Assembly (NCBI GenBank): GCA_004376055.2
Contig: CP049016.1
Span: 620,001-684,000 of the forward strand
Direction: 5' to 3'
Length of the DNA stretch: 64,000 nt
Source of the DNA: Nitrospirales bacterium LBB_01
GTDB taxonomy: Bacteria > Nitrospirota > Thermodesulfovibrionia > Thermodesulfovibrionales > Magnetobacteriaceae
In this document: positions 7,860-14,383 of the stretch, one piece after another
How the letters are laid out: each line of letters starts with the position of its first letter
Numbering within the stretch: position 1 is the first letter of the stretch
Position numbers and translations under genes: made by a program
Notes under the pieces: generated by a model
The model's input: the letters and a program-made list of their open reading frames with translations, nothing else
Database searches by the model: none
Told to the model about the DNA's origin: nothing

Positions 7860-7880
7860 GCGCTTCTGCAAGAGACGTTG

Positions 7881-8786
7881 ATGGGCGCCTTTGATTTTAT
7901 TGGTCGTCTGATAAATGGGTTATTATTACCAGGCTCTGGAGGGGCGGCGTTTCCCACGGATTTTTTACAAATAGAGCCGCTAAAGACCGACTTTGAAAAG
8001 GCATGGATAGAGATTAATCCCGCAAGAGGGACTTCTTACCGTGTCTATGCTCATGTGCACAGACCATCGGGCGGCGAATGTGGAACAAAATATCCGGCAG
8101 TGGTGATTGTACCAGGCGGGGGCAGCTGCGGAACCGATTATGACGGTAACACCGAGGTAACGGCAGAGGATGTCGCCTCGCTGGGGTTTGTTGTGCTTCA
8201 TTATGACCCGTGTGGGCGGGGTAAAACCAGAAGCGCTGAGGATTTTTGGGGGCCAAAGCATCGTGAGGAATTATCGCAGGTTGTTGACTATCTTTCAACC
8301 TTAACGGATGTTGACTCTAAGGACGTTGGAATTCTGTCTTTTTCTATTGGGATAACCACAGCAACAGGAATGCTCTCAGAATGCCCGCCTAAAAACTGCA
8401 AGGTCAAATATTTGTTTGATTGGGAGGGGCCATCAAACAGGATAAATATAACAAAAAACGATACTCATAAACCTTTAAAGGACTATCCGTGCTCGGATGA
8501 CGCCTTTTGGAAAGAGCGTGAGGCCGTACGTTTTATCGGGCAAATTGAGTGCGGATATTTCAGGTATCAGGCTGAGAATGAACATATGCAGGGAACATTT
8601 AAGGGTCATGCGGTGGAGCTTCTAAATGAAGCCGCAGCAGGGAAAGCTCTCTGGAGCCGCTGCAATGATAACCCCCCTGATATACAATATGATATTGATA
8701 AACAGAACTCATACTACTGGATACCGGAGCACCTTAACCATAAAGGACAAATACTTAAGTATCTACTTGAAATTCATAAGTATTAA
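7881..8786 (+). CDS. Alpha/beta hydrolase
   Basis: About 301 residues of dienelactone-hydrolase-like alpha/beta fold. VIVPGGGSCG forms the oxyanion region, HYDPCGRGKT follows, and SFSIGI is the nucleophile-elbow candidate (S-x-S-x-G in place of G-x-S-x-G). A DWEG strand and a late PEHLNHKG provide candidate acid and His residues. There is no signal peptide or membrane segment. I chose ATG 7881; a TTG lies one codon upstream. It follows the response regulator by 21 bases and may share its transcript. The substrate cannot be told from sequence. Confidence 0.75.
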   Translation: MGAFDFIGRLINGLLLPGSGGAAFPTDFLQIEPLKTDFEKAWIEINPARGTSYRVYAHVHRPSGGECGTKYPAVVIVPGGGSCGTDYDGNTEVTAEDVASLGFVVLHYDPCGRGKTRSAEDFWGPKHREELSQVVDYLSTLTDVDSKDVGILSFSIGITTATGMLSECPPKNCKVKYLFDWEGPSNRINITKNDTHKPLKDYPCSDDAFWKEREAVRFIGQIECGYFRYQAENEHMQGTFKGHAVELLNEAAAGKALWSRCNDNPPDIQYDIDKQNSYYWIPEHLNHKGQILKYLLEIHKY

Positions 8787-8795
8787 ATCCTTTTT

Positions 8796-8840
8796 GCGAG
8801 CAAAGCTCGCATTGAAACTTTTTAAGCGGCGACACGCCGG
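8796..8840. repeat. Two-hairpin repeat A, left copy
   Basis: Hairpin 1 is GCGAGC-AAA-GCTCGC. It is followed by the linker ATTGAAACTTTTTAAG and hairpin 2, CGGCG-ACA-CGCCG. A reverse-complement copy with compensated stem changes lies at 11413-11457. It sits just after the hydrolase gene and before mnmA. Confidence 0.85.
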
Positions 8841-8859
8841 TTAAAAAATATTTAAAAAA

Positions 8860-10026
8860 ATGGAATTCCAGCAAAACATAATAATAAACAAACAGACCTC
8901 TGCTACAAAACCTGGGGTCAAGGGGACAAGTCCCCTTGCAGGAGGGTCTAAGGGAGGACAGAGTCCTCCCTTAAAATCAGTAATCATCGGAATGAGCGGG
9001 GGGGTGGATTCCTCTGTGGCGGCGTATTTGCTTAAGGAGCGCGGGTTTGACGTACATGGGGTGAGCTTCATCCTATGGGAGACACGGCAACGGAGCGGTC
9101 ATGCGGCGTGCTGCTCTTTGGATGCAATTAGGGACGCTTCATTAACCTCTGCGGCACTTGGCATAACTCACAGGGAAATTGACGTAAGGGATATTTTTAT
9201 AGAAAAGGTAATAGAGCCGTTCATTTCAGATTACGGCAGGGGGTTAACCCCAAATCCTTGTATCCTATGTAATAAACACATAAAATTTCCGATACTGATG
9301 GCAGAGGCAGAGCATCTTGGGTTTGAGTATATTTCAACCGGTCATTATGCAAAAATTGAAGACAACACGTTGAAAGCCGGTGTTGACGATAAAAAGGATC
9401 AATCGTATTTTTTATATGTTTTAGAACGAGATATGTTGAAAAAGATTATCTTTCCACTTGGAGACTTGACGAAAGAGGCGGTGCGGGAGCTTGCCGCAAG
9501 ACTTAATCTGGCGTCGGCACATAGAGCGGAAAGTCAGGATATTTGCTTTATAGAGGGCGGTAACTATCGCAAGTTTATAAAAGATTATCTTGGCTCTCAG
9601 GGGGATTCACACGGCAAAATAGTTGACATTGACGGCAAGACTCTTGGAATGCACGATGGGCTTTATGCTTACACGTTAGGTCAGAGAAGGGCAACAGGGG
9701 TGGCAGCGGGTGTGCCGCTTTATGTGGTTGAAATTGACACGGTAAACAACATGCTGGTGTTAGGGCCACAGGAGTTTGTAATGAAACGTGAAATAAACGT
9801 CTCTGACATTAATATGTTGAGTAAAGTAAATGAGGATTTAGAGTTTCCGATAAGAGCTAACGTAAAATTTCGTTCAACTATGAAAGGGGCATCCTGTGTC
9901 TTATCTAAAAACAACAGAGGCGGAATAACCGTAACATTTGATGAGCCGCAATATGCACCGGCAAGAGGGCAGAGCGCTGTTTTTTATGTTGGAGAGCGTG
10001 TTATCGGAGGCGGCATTATTGTATAA
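8860..10026 (+). CDS. mnmA: tRNA-specific 2-thiouridylase MnmA
   Basis: ATP-dependent enzyme that thiolates U34 of tRNAs for Lys, Glu and Gln. The PP-loop SGGVDSS is at about 46-52, NPCILCN supplies the first catalytic Cys (134), and QDICFIEGG the second (229). GQRRATGV and the C-terminal beta-barrel end YVGERVIGGGIIV are typical. Normal members have the PP-loop near residue 11; here about 36 extra residues precede it, mostly translated from repeat B. ATG 8860 is the only usual start in frame after a TAA at 8842, and it has no Shine-Dalgarno, only an A/T-rich leader. Either the extension is real or initiation uses an unusual codon nearer SVIIGMSGG. Confidence 0.93.
   Translation: MEFQQNIIINKQTSATKPGVKGTSPLAGGSKGGQSPPLKSVIIGMSGGVDSSVAAYLLKERGFDVHGVSFILWETRQRSGHAACCSLDAIRDASLTSAALGITHREIDVRDIFIEKVIEPFISDYGRGLTPNPCILCNKHIKFPILMAEAEHLGFEYISTGHYAKIEDNTLKAGVDDKKDQSYFLYVLERDMLKKIIFPLGDLTKEAVRELAARLNLASAHRAESQDICFIEGGNYRKFIKDYLGSQGDSHGKIVDIDGKTLGMHDGLYAYTLGQRRATGVAAGVPLYVVEIDTVNNMLVLGPQEFVMKREINVSDINMLSKVNEDLEFPIRANVKFRSTMKGASCVLSKNNRGGITVTFDEPQYAPARGQSAVFYVGERVIGGGIIV
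8912..8973. repeat. Two-hairpin repeat B, left copy, inside the 5' end of mnmA
   Basis: Starts TGGGGTCAAGGGG. Hairpin 1 is CAAGGGG-ACAAGT-CCCCTTG; then GCAGGAGGGTCTAA; hairpin 2 is GGGAGGAC-AGA-GTCCTCCC. It is translated in frame as part of the MnmA N-terminal extension. The inverted partner is at 11291-11354. Confidence 0.85.
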
Positions 10027-10099
10027 ATTGTATGTATTTTTTTATAATAGTGCCGGATCACAAGTTACTATAAGACAACTATAGACCTCGGAGGGCATT

Positions 10100-11275
10100 A
10101 TGAAGACAGCTATTACCGTGCATATGGCAGACAGAGTGAAAAACCTGCCGCCGTATCTTTTTGAGCGTATAGACAAGCTAAAACGAGAAGCTCTAAAGCG
10201 TGGGGCTGATCTCATAGACCTAAGCATTGGCGACCCTGATATACCCACACCGGAACATATAGTTAAGGCGCTGCAGGGTGCTGCGCAAAATCCTGCCCAT
10301 CACCGTTATCCCTCATACGAGGGGATGTTATCGTTTCGTAAGGCGGTGGCAGACTGGTATAGCAGGCGGTTTCAGGTAAATATAAAACCGGAAAACGAGG
10401 TGCTGTCTCTGATAGGCTCAAAAGAGGGAATAGGGCATATCCCGCTAGCGTTTGTAAATCCCGGAGATGTTGTGCTGTGCCCATCCCCTGGGTATCCGGT
10501 TTATTCGGTAGGGACGCTTTTTGCCGGAGGTTTTCCGTATTTTATGCCGCTTAGGGCTGAAAATGATTTCAAACCGGATTTTACCCAGATACCGGAGGAA
10601 ATCTATAAACGCGCAAAGCTGATGTTTTTAAATTATCCTAACAATCCGACAAGTGCCTGTGCAAGCCGTGAGTTTTTTGGCGATGCCATAGACATAGCGT
10701 ATAAATATAACATCATCATATGCCATGACGCAGCCTACAGTGAAATCTACTATGACGGAAATAAGCCGTTGAGTTTTCTTGAGGTGGACGGAGCTAAAGA
10801 CGTTGGTATTGAGTTTCACTCGCTCTCTAAGACATACAACATGACAGGCTGGCGTGTTGGGTTTGCCGTTGGCAATAAGGACGTCATATTTGGACTTGGC
10901 AAGATTAAGACCAATCTGGACTCAGGCGTGTTTCAGGCAATACAGGAGGCGGCTATCTGTGCGCTTGAGACTGATGACTCAGTGCTTTGTGGAATCAGAG
11001 ACACATACCAGTCAAGGCGCGATGCCCTTTATGACGGACTGTCGTCAATCGGGCTTACTGCAAATAAGCCTGACGCAACTTTCTACCTTTGGAGTATAGT
11101 GCCGGAGGGTTTTACATCTGAGACATTCTCAGCATACCTGCTTGAAAAGGCAGCAGTGATGGCAACCCCTGGAAACGGCTTTGGAGATAGCGCAGAGGGA
11201 TACATTCGCTTTGCCCTCACCGTGCCCGTAGCACGAATAAAAGAGGCCGTTGAGCGTATAAAAAAGATTCTTTGA
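10100..11275 (+). CDS. dapL: LL-diaminopimelate aminotransferase-like PLP enzyme
   Basis: Class I/II aminotransferase of 391 residues. DLSIGDPDIPTPEHIV near the N-terminus, HRYPSYEGMLSFRKAV, PGYPVY, NYPNNPTSA and SLSKTYNMTGWRVGF (PLP lysine 244) match the DapL group. DapL converts tetrahydrodipicolinate to LL-diaminopimelate for lysine and peptidoglycan. The final Arg of the substrate pocket (GYIRFALT) is present. A GGAGG site precedes the ATG. Assignment to DapL rather than another aspartate-family aminotransferase is likely but rests on motif memory. It follows mnmA by 73 bases and may be its operon partner. Confidence 0.8.
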   Translation: MKTAITVHMADRVKNLPPYLFERIDKLKREALKRGADLIDLSIGDPDIPTPEHIVKALQGAAQNPAHHRYPSYEGMLSFRKAVADWYSRRFQVNIKPENEVLSLIGSKEGIGHIPLAFVNPGDVVLCPSPGYPVYSVGTLFAGGFPYFMPLRAENDFKPDFTQIPEEIYKRAKLMFLNYPNNPTSACASREFFGDAIDIAYKYNIIICHDAAYSEIYYDGNKPLSFLEVDGAKDVGIEFHSLSKTYNMTGWRVGFAVGNKDVIFGLGKIKTNLDSGVFQAIQEAAICALETDDSVLCGIRDTYQSRRDALYDGLSSIGLTANKPDATFYLWSIVPEGFTSETFSAYLLEKAAVMATPGNGFGDSAEGYIRFALTVPVARIKEAVERIKKIL

Positions 11276-11290
11276 TAGGGAATTATTAGA

Positions 11291-11354
11291 AAGGGGAAGG
11301 CGCTGCCTACCCCTTAGACCTCCACCGCAAGGGGTTTTGAACCCCTTGACCCCA
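11291..11354. repeat. Two-hairpin repeat B, right copy (inverted)
   Basis: On the minus strand it reads TGGGGTCAAGGGG-TTCAAAA-CCCCTTGCGGTGGAGG and then TCTAAGGGGTAGGC-AGC-GCCTTCCCC. It is the inverted partner of 8912-8973, with changed but still pairing stems. It begins right after dapL and could end its transcript, although no T-run follows. Confidence 0.85.
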
Positions 11355-11412
11355 TGTTTTTTGTCAGCTCTGATGTCTTGTTGTGGTGATTGTGATAAAA
11401 GAATTTTTTCAA

Positions 11413-11457
11413 CCGGCGTTCCGCCGCTTAAAAAGTTTCAATGCGGACTTTGTCCGC
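11413..11457. repeat. Two-hairpin repeat A, right copy (inverted)
   Basis: On the minus strand it reads GCGGAC-AAA-GTCCGC, linker ATTGAAACTTTTTAAG, CGGCG-GAA-CGCCG. The linker is identical to the left copy, while the first stem differs by paired changes. The rest of the interval 11276-11574 holds repeat B and the terminator of the EF-hand gene, with no further gene. Confidence 0.85.
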
Positions 11458-11536
11458 AAAACAAATGAACAAATAAAAAGAGGTTCTTTCACAAAATGAG
11501 AGGGTAAGTATATATAAGAAGTAGCCACTGTTGCCT

Positions 11537-11567
11537 TAAAAAGAGCAGCCGACTTACCGTCGGCTGC
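11537..11567 (-). terminator. Rho-independent terminator of the EF-hand gene
   Basis: The minus strand reads GCAGCCGAC-GGTAA-GTCGGCTGC followed by TCTTTTT. This is a perfect nine-pair GC-rich stem with a T-tract, placed eight bases after the stop codon of the EF-hand gene. Confidence 0.9.
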
Positions 11568-11574
11568 TGCGAAT

Positions 11575-12312
11575 TTATGCACTCAAATTAACATAGCTTC
11601 CAAAGTACGCTGATTTTGCACTGTATCCATTCTGGTTATAGCTGGTAAAACTTTTCTCCGTGCTTGCTGTCTCAGGGTGTTTGAGAGCATATGCAAATTC
11701 CTCAGCGGCACTAACCGTCCCGTCTTGATTGGTATCCTTCTTGTCATAAGATGTGGAATCGCTGCTCTTTGCCGTGCTGCCTGACTTTGCTGCACCGCCT
11801 GCTGGTGGTGCACCCTTTCCTCCTGACGTCTTGAGGGAGGTTTCGATGTCGCTCTGAGTGATCTTCCCTGTGCCCTTAGTGTCTATTTTGTCGAAGAGTT
11901 TTGCTGCATCATCGGCGGAAACACCCTTTGCAGTCAACCCAGCAGTGAATTCCGACTTGTCGAGAGTATTGTCTCCATTTTTGTCAAAGTCTTTCATCAT
12001 ACGAGTGGCCATTTTAGACGGGTCAAAACCTCCTGCGCTTCCCATTCCGCTAACGCTTCTCATTGCGCTTCCTCCAGATGCCTTGAGAGAGGTTTCGATG
12101 TCGCTCTGAGTGATCTTCCCTGTGCCTTTAGTGTCTATTTTGTCGAAGAGTTTTGCTGCATCATCGGCGGAAACACCCTTTGCAGTCAACCCAGCAGTGA
12201 ATTCCGACTTGTCGATATTTTTGTCTCCGTTTTTGTCGAGGTCTTTCATCATACGAGTGGCCATGTTAGACGGGTCAAAACCTCCTGTACTTCCCATTCC
12301 GCTAATAGTCAT
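11575..12312 (-). CDS. EF-hand calcium-binding protein with duplicated module
   Basis: 245 residues with five EF-hand loops. Canonical 12-residue loops are DKNGDKNIDKSE (about 26), DKNGDNTLDKSE (about 110) and DTNQDGTVSAAE (about 196). Two DTKGTGKITQSD loops end in Asp and are weaker. Residues 1-84 and 85-168 are a near-perfect tandem duplication. No signal peptide or membrane helix is visible, so it is probably a soluble calcium sensor or buffer, or is exported by another route. AAAGGAG precedes the ATG and a strong terminator follows. It lies 176 bases after the sigma/anti-sigma/Spy-like operon on the same strand and may belong to its regulon. Confidence 0.85.
   Translation of the reverse strand: MTISGMGSTGGFDPSNMATRMMKDLDKNGDKNIDKSEFTAGLTAKGVSADDAAKLFDKIDTKGTGKITQSDIETSLKASGGSAMRSVSGMGSAGGFDPSKMATRMMKDFDKNGDNTLDKSEFTAGLTAKGVSADDAAKLFDKIDTKGTGKITQSDIETSLKTSGGKGAPPAGGAAKSGSTAKSSDSTSYDKKDTNQDGTVSAAEEFAYALKHPETASTEKSFTSYNQNGYSAKSAYFGSYVNLSA
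11820..12306. repeat. 252-bp tandem duplication inside the EF-hand gene
   Basis: About 120 bases starting at 11839 recur at 12091 with almost no change, and the similarity covers nearly the full 84-codon unit. Synonymous and other changes are very few, pointing to a recent or homogenised duplication. Confidence 0.9.
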
Positions 12313-12488
12313 GTCGATCTCCTTTCATCATTTAATGTAAACTCTCTGTGCTTTTACGTTCTTTGTGGCACTTTACCTTTAAAGCTTTAAAATAGGTGGT
12401 TTAAAACTAAGCTCCCTTACAAACACAAATCAGCTATTCCATTAGTCTCATTAACGAATCACCTCCATTTTTGAGTTAAATTTGTGTG

Positions 12489-12872
12489 TTAGTTTTCATT
12501 AAAGAAGTCGTGCTTGCGCCGCTGTTCTATAATTTTTTCAAATTTTTCCTTTTGGTCAACACTTAAAATTGACATTGTGTTATTGTCTGCCTCTTCTATA
12601 ATTATTTTTATCTGTGGAAACGACTGTTTATGAATCACTCTCATTTTTTTATGCATGGATTCCATGATCAAACTTAATTTTTTTTTCTGTTCCTGATTGA
12701 GATTCAGATCTGTGGCAATATGTTTAATAATTGCTTCTTTCATGTTTACCGGACCGCCTCTCCACATCTGATCCATCCTCATAGTACATATATAATGGAC
12801 TGTGATAGCCCCGACAGAGCAACCTATAATAAAAATAATAATTGTACCTGCAAGTCTTTTTCTGTTGTTCAC
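12489..12872 (-). CDS. Spy/CnrX-like periplasmic sensor protein
   Basis: 127 residues. An N-terminal signal anchor (IIIFIIGCSVGAITVHYIC, about 10-28) is followed by a helical periplasmic domain. The domain has two LTxxQ-type motifs (LNLNQEQ at about 56, LSVDQKE at about 103), as in Spy, CpxP, ZraP and CnrX. Such proteins act as periplasmic chaperones or metal-binding sensors that control an anti-sigma factor. Its start overlaps the stop of the upstream membrane gene by four bases, so translation is probably coupled. It is likely the sensing arm of the sigma system. Metal specificity cannot be told. Confidence 0.75.
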   Translation of the reverse strand: MNNRKRLAGTIIIFIIGCSVGAITVHYICTMRMDQMWRGGPVNMKEAIIKHIATDLNLNQEQKKKLSLIMESMHKKMRVIHKQSFPQIKIIIEEADNNTMSILSVDQKEKFEKIIEQRRKHDFFNEN

Positions 12873-13174
12873 CTTTGTTGTCCTCCCACATAGGTTGAGA
12901 GCACGCTTTGCTCAAAATCGGTATATGCGGCAAAACAATAATACTCTCTCTGCTTATGCGTTATTATGCCAAATTCTAATATACTTAATAATATAATTAG
13001 TGTCACGAAATATGGTATAAGTCTCCATGACCATGCGTATAGATGAACATCATCGTCATTATTTACGTATAGACGCTTTGCCAGGCGTACCTCAAAATTC
13101 CGTTCCAAATGAGAAGTATCCGGTCTCACTTGCCGGACATTTTGAAATAATTCTTCAAGTTTTCTGTTTTTCAT
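12869..13174 (-). CDS. Putative anti-sigma factor, single-pass membrane protein
   Basis: 101 residues. About 50 N-terminal cytoplasmic residues are charged (RKLEELFQNVRQVRPDTSHLERNFEVRLAKRL, in two pieces). One transmembrane helix follows (LIPYFVTLIILLSILEFGII, about 52-71), then a short periplasmic tail. No zinc-binding HxxxCxxC motif is seen, so it would be a non-ZAS type like CnrY. It starts 20 bases inside the end of the sigma-factor gene and overlaps the Spy-like gene. The call rests on gene order and topology rather than on recognised homology. Confidence 0.65.
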   Translation of the reverse strand: MKNRKLEELFQNVRQVRPDTSHLERNFEVRLAKRLYVNNDDDVHLYAWSWRLIPYFVTLIILLSILEFGIITHKQREYYCFAAYTDFEQSVLSTYVGGQQR

Positions 13175-13796
13175 TTTTATCCCCCAAATATCCCCTTAGT
13201 TTCATTCGCGCTCTAAAGGCACGAACTTTTACATTAGTCTCACTCCATCCGGTTAGCTGTGCTACTTCACGAACCGATTTTTCCTCCAGTTCAAGAAGTA
13301 TAATTATCATTTTATCTTTTACGGAAAGTTTATCCAATGCTGCATAAAGCTCTCTGTAAGAGTCATCTTTGTCAGAAATCGGAATTGTCGCAAATCCGTC
13401 CACAGGTTGTTCTACGTCATCCAGTGCAACGTTGTCGGTTCTTCTTTTTTGCTTTCTTAGAGCATCGTAACAACAATTTATAGTGATTTTTATCAGCCAA
13501 TGTTCAAACGGAGCATCTGCTCTATACTTGTTAAGATTGGTGTACGCCCTGATAAATGCCTCCTGGCATATGTCATCAAGTTCACAACTATTCAGAGTAA
13601 AGCGTGTCGTTATTGCAAATACTTTCCGTTTATAGCGTCTGACTAATTCGTTAAATGCCTCCTTATCGCCAGATAGTACAGCTTCTATGTAAATCATATC
13701 ATTAGACTTTTCTTGTATACAAGAAATTTCATTAATTTCGTTAAATAAGATACCCTTTACTTGTGTATGTAAACCAGAGTAAGAATTACTTATCAT
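13155..13796 (-). CDS. ECF-type RNA polymerase sigma factor
   Basis: Sigma-70 family, ECF type. Region 2 spans about 36-105 (AFNELVRRYKRKVFAI, DDICQEAFIRAYTNL, FEHWLIKITINCCYDALRK). Region 4 spans about 145-200 (LSVKDKMIIILLELEEKSV, REVAQLTGWSETNVKVRAFR). AAAGGTG lies about ten bases before the ATG at 13796. The family core begins near MIYIEAVLSGDKEAF at residue 34, so an internal start at 13697 is possible. First gene of a compact operon with an anti-sigma-like and a Spy-like gene, it probably drives an envelope-stress or metal regulon including its own operon. Confidence 0.88.
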   Translation of the reverse strand: MISNSYSGLHTQVKGILFNEINEISCIQEKSNDMIYIEAVLSGDKEAFNELVRRYKRKVFAITTRFTLNSCELDDICQEAFIRAYTNLNKYRADAPFEHWLIKITINCCYDALRKQKRRTDNVALDDVEQPVDGFATIPISDKDDSYRELYAALDKLSVKDKMIIILLELEEKSVREVAQLTGWSETNVKVRAFRARMKLRGYLGDKNEKQKT

Positions 13797-14383
13797 GGCC
13801 GTAACACCTTTATTGATTCAACGTTAAAACACAGCTTATGCAATCTCATCTTTACCTGTTCTGTTATTAAATTTATCATATCTATAATTATAGACGCATT
13901 GCCGGCAAAAAGGTTACAAAATTAAAACAATAACCGTAAGACGATGTGTCAATAGGCATTGAAAAGTGACCAATCCCTTGTATGTTAAGCTCTGAGTGAG
14001 GGAAAAAATAAACTTGAAGAATTTGTAATAATTGAACCAAAGAGTGCAGATGCAACAGAGCGCATTCCCAGGGGGCGTAGTAGCCCGTGGTGCAGTTATG
14101 GTCGTTGTTTATCAGAAAAAAATATTACTTTTGAACACGACTATAGAATTGGAATAACTGTGTCTTTCCGGGGGGCGTGCTTGGAATAAGTAGAAAATAG
14201 TGTTTATAATCGGCTACCAAAAATTTAGGAGGTTAGCCGATGGACGTAGAGCCAGTAGTAAAGCCAACATTAAGTGATGTAGTAGAAAGATTTATACCTT
14301 TTATCGTTTAGATTGATGCGCCTGATGTGCTAGTGAGACTTCTATTTTTCAAAATAGCCCTGAAATATGTTAATATCAATCGG
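13797..14383. other. Gene-poor stretch with possible insertion-sequence debris
   Basis: This interval between the sigma operon and a divergent glycosyltransferase has no intact gene. It holds GTGTCAATAGGCATTGAAAA near 13945, a string that recalls IS21-type termini (weak, from memory), and a truncated 23-codon frame at 14240. Promoters for both flanking genes should lie here, but none is convincing. Confidence 0.4.
14240..14311 (+). pseudogene. Truncated 23-codon gene start with strong ribosome site
   Basis: AGGAGG lies seven bases before ATG, and the frame MDVEPVVKPTLSDVVERFIP ends three residues later. The ribosome site is better than that of most real genes here, while the product is too short for any known domain. 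I suspect the 5' stub of a deleted gene, possibly a transposase. It could instead be a leader peptide. Confidence 0.35.

Follow-up and report, generated by a model that had tools for sequence, protein, structure and literature searches.

Two probably unrelated copies of a dispersed, hairpin-rich A-B repeat form the inverted bracket around mnmA-dapL in a Nitrospirota genome

In Nitrospirales bacterium LBB_01, the gene pair mnmA-dapL is framed by two inverted copies of a composite repeat, made of a module A and a module B (the window is the whole stretch of 64,000 nucleotides that was analysed, positions 620,001 to 684,000 of contig CP049016.1). A-B is very probably a new modular, hairpin-rich, non-coding repeat of the BOX/SPRITE/ERIC-like kind, and the bracket two unrelated copies of it; mnmA-dapL itself is an ordinary ancestral gene pair. 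This removes a false lead, that of a housekeeping cassette without a transposase, and puts in its place a new repeat family of the Nitrospirota, in which an old, family-wide B is joined to a genus-specific A and the whole is held in strict polarity toward the 3' ends of genes.

The bracket itself, first seen in a sequence-only reading of the window, is confirmed: both inverted pairs are recovered within the 64 kb, the A arms (8792-8848 and 11405-11461; 57 nt) being 88% complementary and the B-edge arms (8900-8925 and 11342-11367; 26 nt) 85%, and the A core occurs exactly twice, against 0.00 occurrences expected from shuffles. The limits first given for the bracket, 8796 and 11457, are right to within a few bases, by which they miss the ends of the repeat; the similar-edged spacers between A and B, of about 71 and 58 bases, match what is found, and covariance models give the full extent of B (Table 1). 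A complete unit measures about 190-210 bp and consists of a conserved A/T-rich tail that sits ahead of A, the two hairpins of A around an invariant core (TGAAACTTTTTAA), an A/T-rich spacer of about 58 nt, and the two G+C-rich hairpins of B; in most copies the conserved sequence reaches about 25 nt beyond A.

Table 1. The two A-B copies of the window, the genes that they frame and their outer neighbours.
Feature	Position	Strand	Remarks
alpha/beta-hydrolase-like ORF, A-side neighbour of left copy	7878..8786	+	by inspection; no Pfam match
left copy, module A	8792..8854	+	covariance model 82.9 bits; covariation; hairpin 1 GCGAGC-AAA-GCTCGC, hairpin 2 TTTTTAAGCGGCG..CGCCGGTTAAAAA
left copy, A/T-rich spacer	8855..8911	+	57 nt; contains ATG 8860
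mnmA (PF03054, PF20259, PF20258)	8860..10026	+	starts inside left copy, with B in frame
left copy, module B	8912..8974	+	covariance model 74.8 bits; covariation; hairpins GGGGACAAGTCCCC and GGGAGGACAGAGTCCTCCC
dapL-like aminotransferase (PF00155)	10100..11275	+	adjoins mnmA in all family members examined
right copy, module B	11290..11355	-	covariance model 79.0 bits; starts 14 nt past dapL stop codon
right copy, spacer	11356..11398	-	
right copy, module A, inverted	11399..11461	-	covariance model 85.1 bits
right copy, conserved outer tail	11462..11486	-	family consensus TAAATCTTTTAATCTGCTCGTCTG
EF-hand protein, A-side neighbour of right copy	11575..12312	-	

Across the 3.27-Mb genome (G000), the A core is found 15 times with at most three mismatches, and in 14 of these cases B comes next, with order and orientation unchanged. 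Counted by covariance models (R1 for A, R2 for B), there are 17 good copies of A, on both strands, and about 26 of B; the congeners have 3 (G001), about 36 (G002) and about 27 (G003) copies of A. When 81 A copies from the four congeneric genomes are read in context, 75 have B behind them on the same strand, at a modal distance of 57-60 nt, and A-B is thus one modular unit. Among the genomes searched, A is restricted to the genus, with none found in another 36 genomes from its family and order, and B is older and family-wide: in the 25 relatives searched it occurs in all congeners and, without A, in several other genera of the family, reaching by itself 98 to at least 150 copies per genome in one genus (at least 150 in two of its genomes). 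An exact pattern search for B was uninformative, the control counts being comparable. A has been added to B, or kept with B, only in this genus. The family joins a fixed order of modules to the separate occurrence of one of them, as in BOX-like modularity, and it is dispersed, non-coding, multi-copy and structured, as MITEs and BOX-like repeats are. That the repeat belongs to an undescribed class, as first proposed, stands: Rfam 15 gives no match above the gathering score at A-B (the sole match in the window is the tmRNA), phage and plasmid collections give no A-B match, IMG/VR gives no exact match to the A core, and the literature searched for repeats in Magnetobacterium and Nitrospirota yields nothing relevant. 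The family appears to be undescribed.

Within the bracket, synteny bears on whether mnmA-dapL has moved: the two genes are adjacent in the congener G001 and in four other genera (g2, g3, g4 and g7) without A-B at the site, the stretch from g7 having one A-like core about 1.2 kb downstream of dapL. Since this order is conserved in genomes without the repeat, the idea of a mobilised gene cassette fails. The arms, moreover, are not sisters. The left copy is orthologous in the sister species G002 and G003, where both its flanks are conserved; the right copy, behind dapL, is absent from G001, G002 and G003 and present only in this genome, and synteny with G002 and G003 breaks at its edge (about 11288) and picks up again at about 14345. 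The two window copies share 70% identity, and comparison with other copies gives a mean of 68.5% (rank 52 of 142); the nearest relatives of the left copy are its orthologues in G002 and G003 (83% and 82%), while that of the right copy lies at a different locus. This unequal sharing among species, together with the closest-copy identities, shows arms of different age, derived from different source copies. As two unrelated copies of a dispersed repeat, they do not mark a mobile cassette.

It is hardly credible, then, that the A-B arms are the ends, and mnmA-dapL the cargo, of an element resembling a composite transposon or mobile insertion cassette, with a transposase acting in trans. The arms are inverted, no transposase lies between them, and inverted pairs do exceed chance in the genus; against this, inverted ends of such an element should be closely related, and these are as similar as random copies; cargo and ends should form one unit, and G002 and G003 have the left end only, so that the left arm is common to three species and the right arm to none; and the other pairs are mostly of the opposite layout. 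Conserved synteny and the unequal age of the arms lead us to reject it. The sequence-only reading had named A-B singletons at 3' ends as what would make the pairing chance, and the units are indeed dispersed, mostly as singletons, at 3' ends.

The left copy overlaps the annotated mnmA ORF. By inspection, the start codon of mnmA in G002, G003 and probably G001 is a TTG located between B (where present) and the sequence SVIIGMSGG or its equivalent; in the present genome it has been lost to a deletion of about 17 nt. The sole upstream in-frame start is the ATG in the repeat, and the annotated mnmA ORF consequently takes in B as some 38 additional residues, with the Pfam domain of MnmA starting at residue 40. 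The predicted N-terminal extension encoded by repeat B (window 8860-8992) reads MEFQQNIIINKQTSATKPGVKGTSPLAGGSKGGQSPPLKSVIIG..., and a predicted repeat-encoded stretch of the peptide MEFQQNIIINKQ....

The unit is tightly placed at its B end. With orthologous duplicates removed, the median distance between the B end and the facing gene's stop codon is 11 nt (n=38), and in 35 of the 38 genes whose 3' end faces B the stop codon is within 44 nt; the A side is placed far more loosely (median 159 nt, n=39, likewise without orthologous duplicates), and B-only copies show the same tendency toward gene 3' ends. The apparent inverted bracket very probably results from this usual orientation (B toward the gene 3' end) on the right and a chance copy on the left. 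All four hairpins covary: 10 of the 18 pairs in the A helices show two-sided changes (46 compensatory cells), as do 15 of the 20 in the B helices (256 compensatory cells), with 0 of 500 shuffles as high in either module, and standard pairs fill 98% of the A and B helix cells in the alignments of all copies. Fitting the alignments to the models favours structure; the numbers of compensatory cells are nonetheless large. The hairpins are kept, as RNA or as DNA, while the sequence drifts to about 70% identity.

A location directly behind stop codons, strong covariation and a family-wide B are also what one would see if A-B were an immobile RNA structure of 3' ends, a terminator or stabiliser, inherited vertically or arisen by convergence. 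We consider this unlikely: the full A-spacer-B at about 70% identity in unrelated loci requires copying, as does a copy number that ranges from 3 to about 36 between congeners, and some copies are absent from three congeners. Nor do the copies carry a canonical terminator call; at both copies of the window terminator calling gives no canonical intrinsic terminator, and B is followed by a T-rich tail, not by poly-T. We prefer to read this dispersed repeat as non-autonomous, with neither terminal inverted repeats nor coding capacity, and probably spread by machinery not its own; once mobile, as seems probable, it would have multiplied in the genus ancestor and been retained directly behind genes, with its B end toward the stop codon, where it does the least harm, or some good, and where its hairpins may act at the 3' ends of transcripts. 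On this view, the copy ahead of mnmA dates from the common ancestor of the three species that share it, and the second, unrelated copy, behind dapL, arose in this genome only. The strict 3'-end polarity and the defined modules make both mobility and an effect at transcript ends testable.

In the genome at large, A-B units do not always stand in inverted pairs around genes: 11 of the 17 A copies are singletons. The other six form three close pairs, all inverted, and this number exceeds chance (0.22 expected, P=0.0015, or P=0.012 when copies are restricted to the origin-proximal half). G002 has five close pairs against 1.1 expected (P=0.004), again all inverted, and G001 has one direct pair. As the pairs are without exception inverted in both this genome and G002, the placement of A-B is not fully independent. 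Pairing is to this extent non-random, as first suspected, but its usual layout is the opposite of that around mnmA-dapL, namely B-A-gene-A-B with a single accessory gene within; the layout with A outermost has one further case, in G002, where the pair surrounds a long gene judged nuclease-like by eye. In all seven pairs tested the two members show ordinary identity to each other, and the pairs are thus not recent duplications. Standing between core genes, the enclosed genes are SIR2-like, DUF4062, antitoxin-like and others of no known kind, and it is this enclosing of variable genes by inverted pairs that most deserves attention. The genes at L240:1460-2236(-) and L242:1264-1974(+) encode homologous proteins of 258 and 236 aa without Pfam matches; each gene stands alone between inverted A-B copies, and the two belong to different loci, in two species.

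Five loci with A-B only in this genome (L312, L313, L314, L316 and L321) were compared with the relatives, using a flank query of 2279 nt (two flanks were covered in part). In L313 and L316, the segment missing from the three congeners comprises A-B and DNA on its A side with toxin-antitoxin genes or their remnants (by inspection); in L312, B is found in all four species and A only in this genome; L314 and L321 have had their intergenic region replaced. Extra DNA on the B side occurs in none of the five, and across species, where one flank is conserved and both could be tested, it is the B flank each time (about 7 against 0). The five comparisons yield no clean single-element empty site and no precise insertion with target duplication, and mobility of the bare unit is for this reason something we infer. 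The dated changes fit a repeat fixed at a gene 3' end beside variable intergenic space, and would also allow for A-B having arrived along with accessory genes.

For the latter case, A-B would be one junction of accessory-gene insertions behind a core gene, made by a site-directed or homology-assisted process, the A end turned to the new genes and the B end to the core gene; in the window the inserts would be the outer hydrolase and EF-hand sides, not mnmA-dapL. Several observations point this way: the new DNA with toxin-antitoxin-type genes in L313 and L316, always on the A side; the B flank as sole conserved flank; the variable genes enclosed by pairs; the synteny break that coincides with the right copy; and the neighbours, which on the B side are mostly housekeeping proteins and on the A side are mixed, with defence or toxin-antitoxin matches (HicB-like, SIR2-like, DUF4062 and PADLOC candidate proteins). 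However, with B about 10 nt from a stop codon new DNA can land only on the A side, so that geometry alone predicts the pattern; core genes also occur on the A side (GlnE, CinA); neither a recombinase nor a clean junction or free form turned up; and the left copy of the window has both flanks conserved in G002 and G003. We therefore hold the junction to be improbable, and see only a slim chance that A-B is the end of a process inserting toxin-antitoxin or defence-like genes behind core genes, in which A would receive the cargo, B be anchored at the stop codon of the core gene and B-A-cargo-A-B pairs be completed insertions. The hydrolase-like ORF beside the left copy also occurs in G002 and G003 and was not found in the G001 stretch. 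Beyond the right copy, window 11462-14345 holds a cluster of the EF-hand protein, an LTXXQ-motif ORF and a sigma-70-family factor, which is missing from the orthologous site in G002 and G003, where other sequence stands instead.

Among the known systems closest to the dispersed A-B repeat are the BOX elements of Streptococcus pneumoniae, which have subunits in fixed order and much secondary structure, occur mostly in one species group, are most likely non-autonomous and, when large, can form expressed ORFs (PMC3049150); the two are alike in fixed-order modules, structure and narrow range, a likeness of description. BOX is described with terminal inverted repeats and target duplications (PMC3049150), whereas A-B shows neither: its left end (TATAAATCTTTTAATC) and right end (CCCTTA) have no complementarity, and no target duplication is visible at its ends. 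Unlike BOX, A-B has a bias to gene 3' ends with fixed polarity. SPRITE, a terminator-like repeat of S. pneumoniae, is likewise found near the 3' termini of coding sequences (PMC3049150), but is a single AT-rich terminator-like element, whereas A-B, with its four hairpins, is not called as a U-tract terminator. With MITEs of the ERIC/Correia type, A-B shares being short, structured, intergenic, sometimes in coding frames and variable in copy number; those MITEs have terminal inverted repeats (PMC10969869), none of which was found in A-B. Rickettsia palindromic elements lie in frame within unrelated protein genes (PMC10969869), as the left copy does in mnmA; this in-frame case, unlike theirs, is a single one, N-terminal, and follows the loss of the original start codon.

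Hairpins near both ends, with no terminal inverted repeats and no evident target duplication, would further suit an IS200/IS605- or RAYT-derived palindrome-associated element (PATE/REPIN-like) moved by a Y1 transposase. This is very doubtful, as the number of Y1 transposases is out of step with that of A-B copies: there are three IS200-like genes in G000 (17 A copies) and none in G001 (3); G002 (about 36) and G003 (about 27) have only weak RAYT-like matches; and no A-B copy was seen abutting a Y1 transposase gene. On this distribution, Y1 transposases are an unlikely driver of A-B.

Some further observations concern individual copies. Sixteen of the 17 A-B copies of this genome lie less than 0.83 Mb from dnaA (C1:1054; Rayleigh p about 0.01), and B-only copies are found chromosome-wide. 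Other short palindromic repeats are nested between or beside A and B in L313, L317 and L321 (GGATTCCCGC..GCGGGAATGAC; ATTGCGAGGAGCG..CGTAGCAATCTC; TTGGAGCAGTC..GACTGCTCCAACG). In L320 (C1:3216393), a CRISPR-like array with the repeat GTTGTGGGTTGCTACCAGGTACTGATATGTTATACT stands on the A side of an A-B copy, and among the B-side neighbours PADLOC reports Cas2, probably the adjacent 110-aa ORF. Finally, A is seemingly flipped between G002 and G003, within the same flanks, in L276 compared with L298 and in L244 compared with L285.
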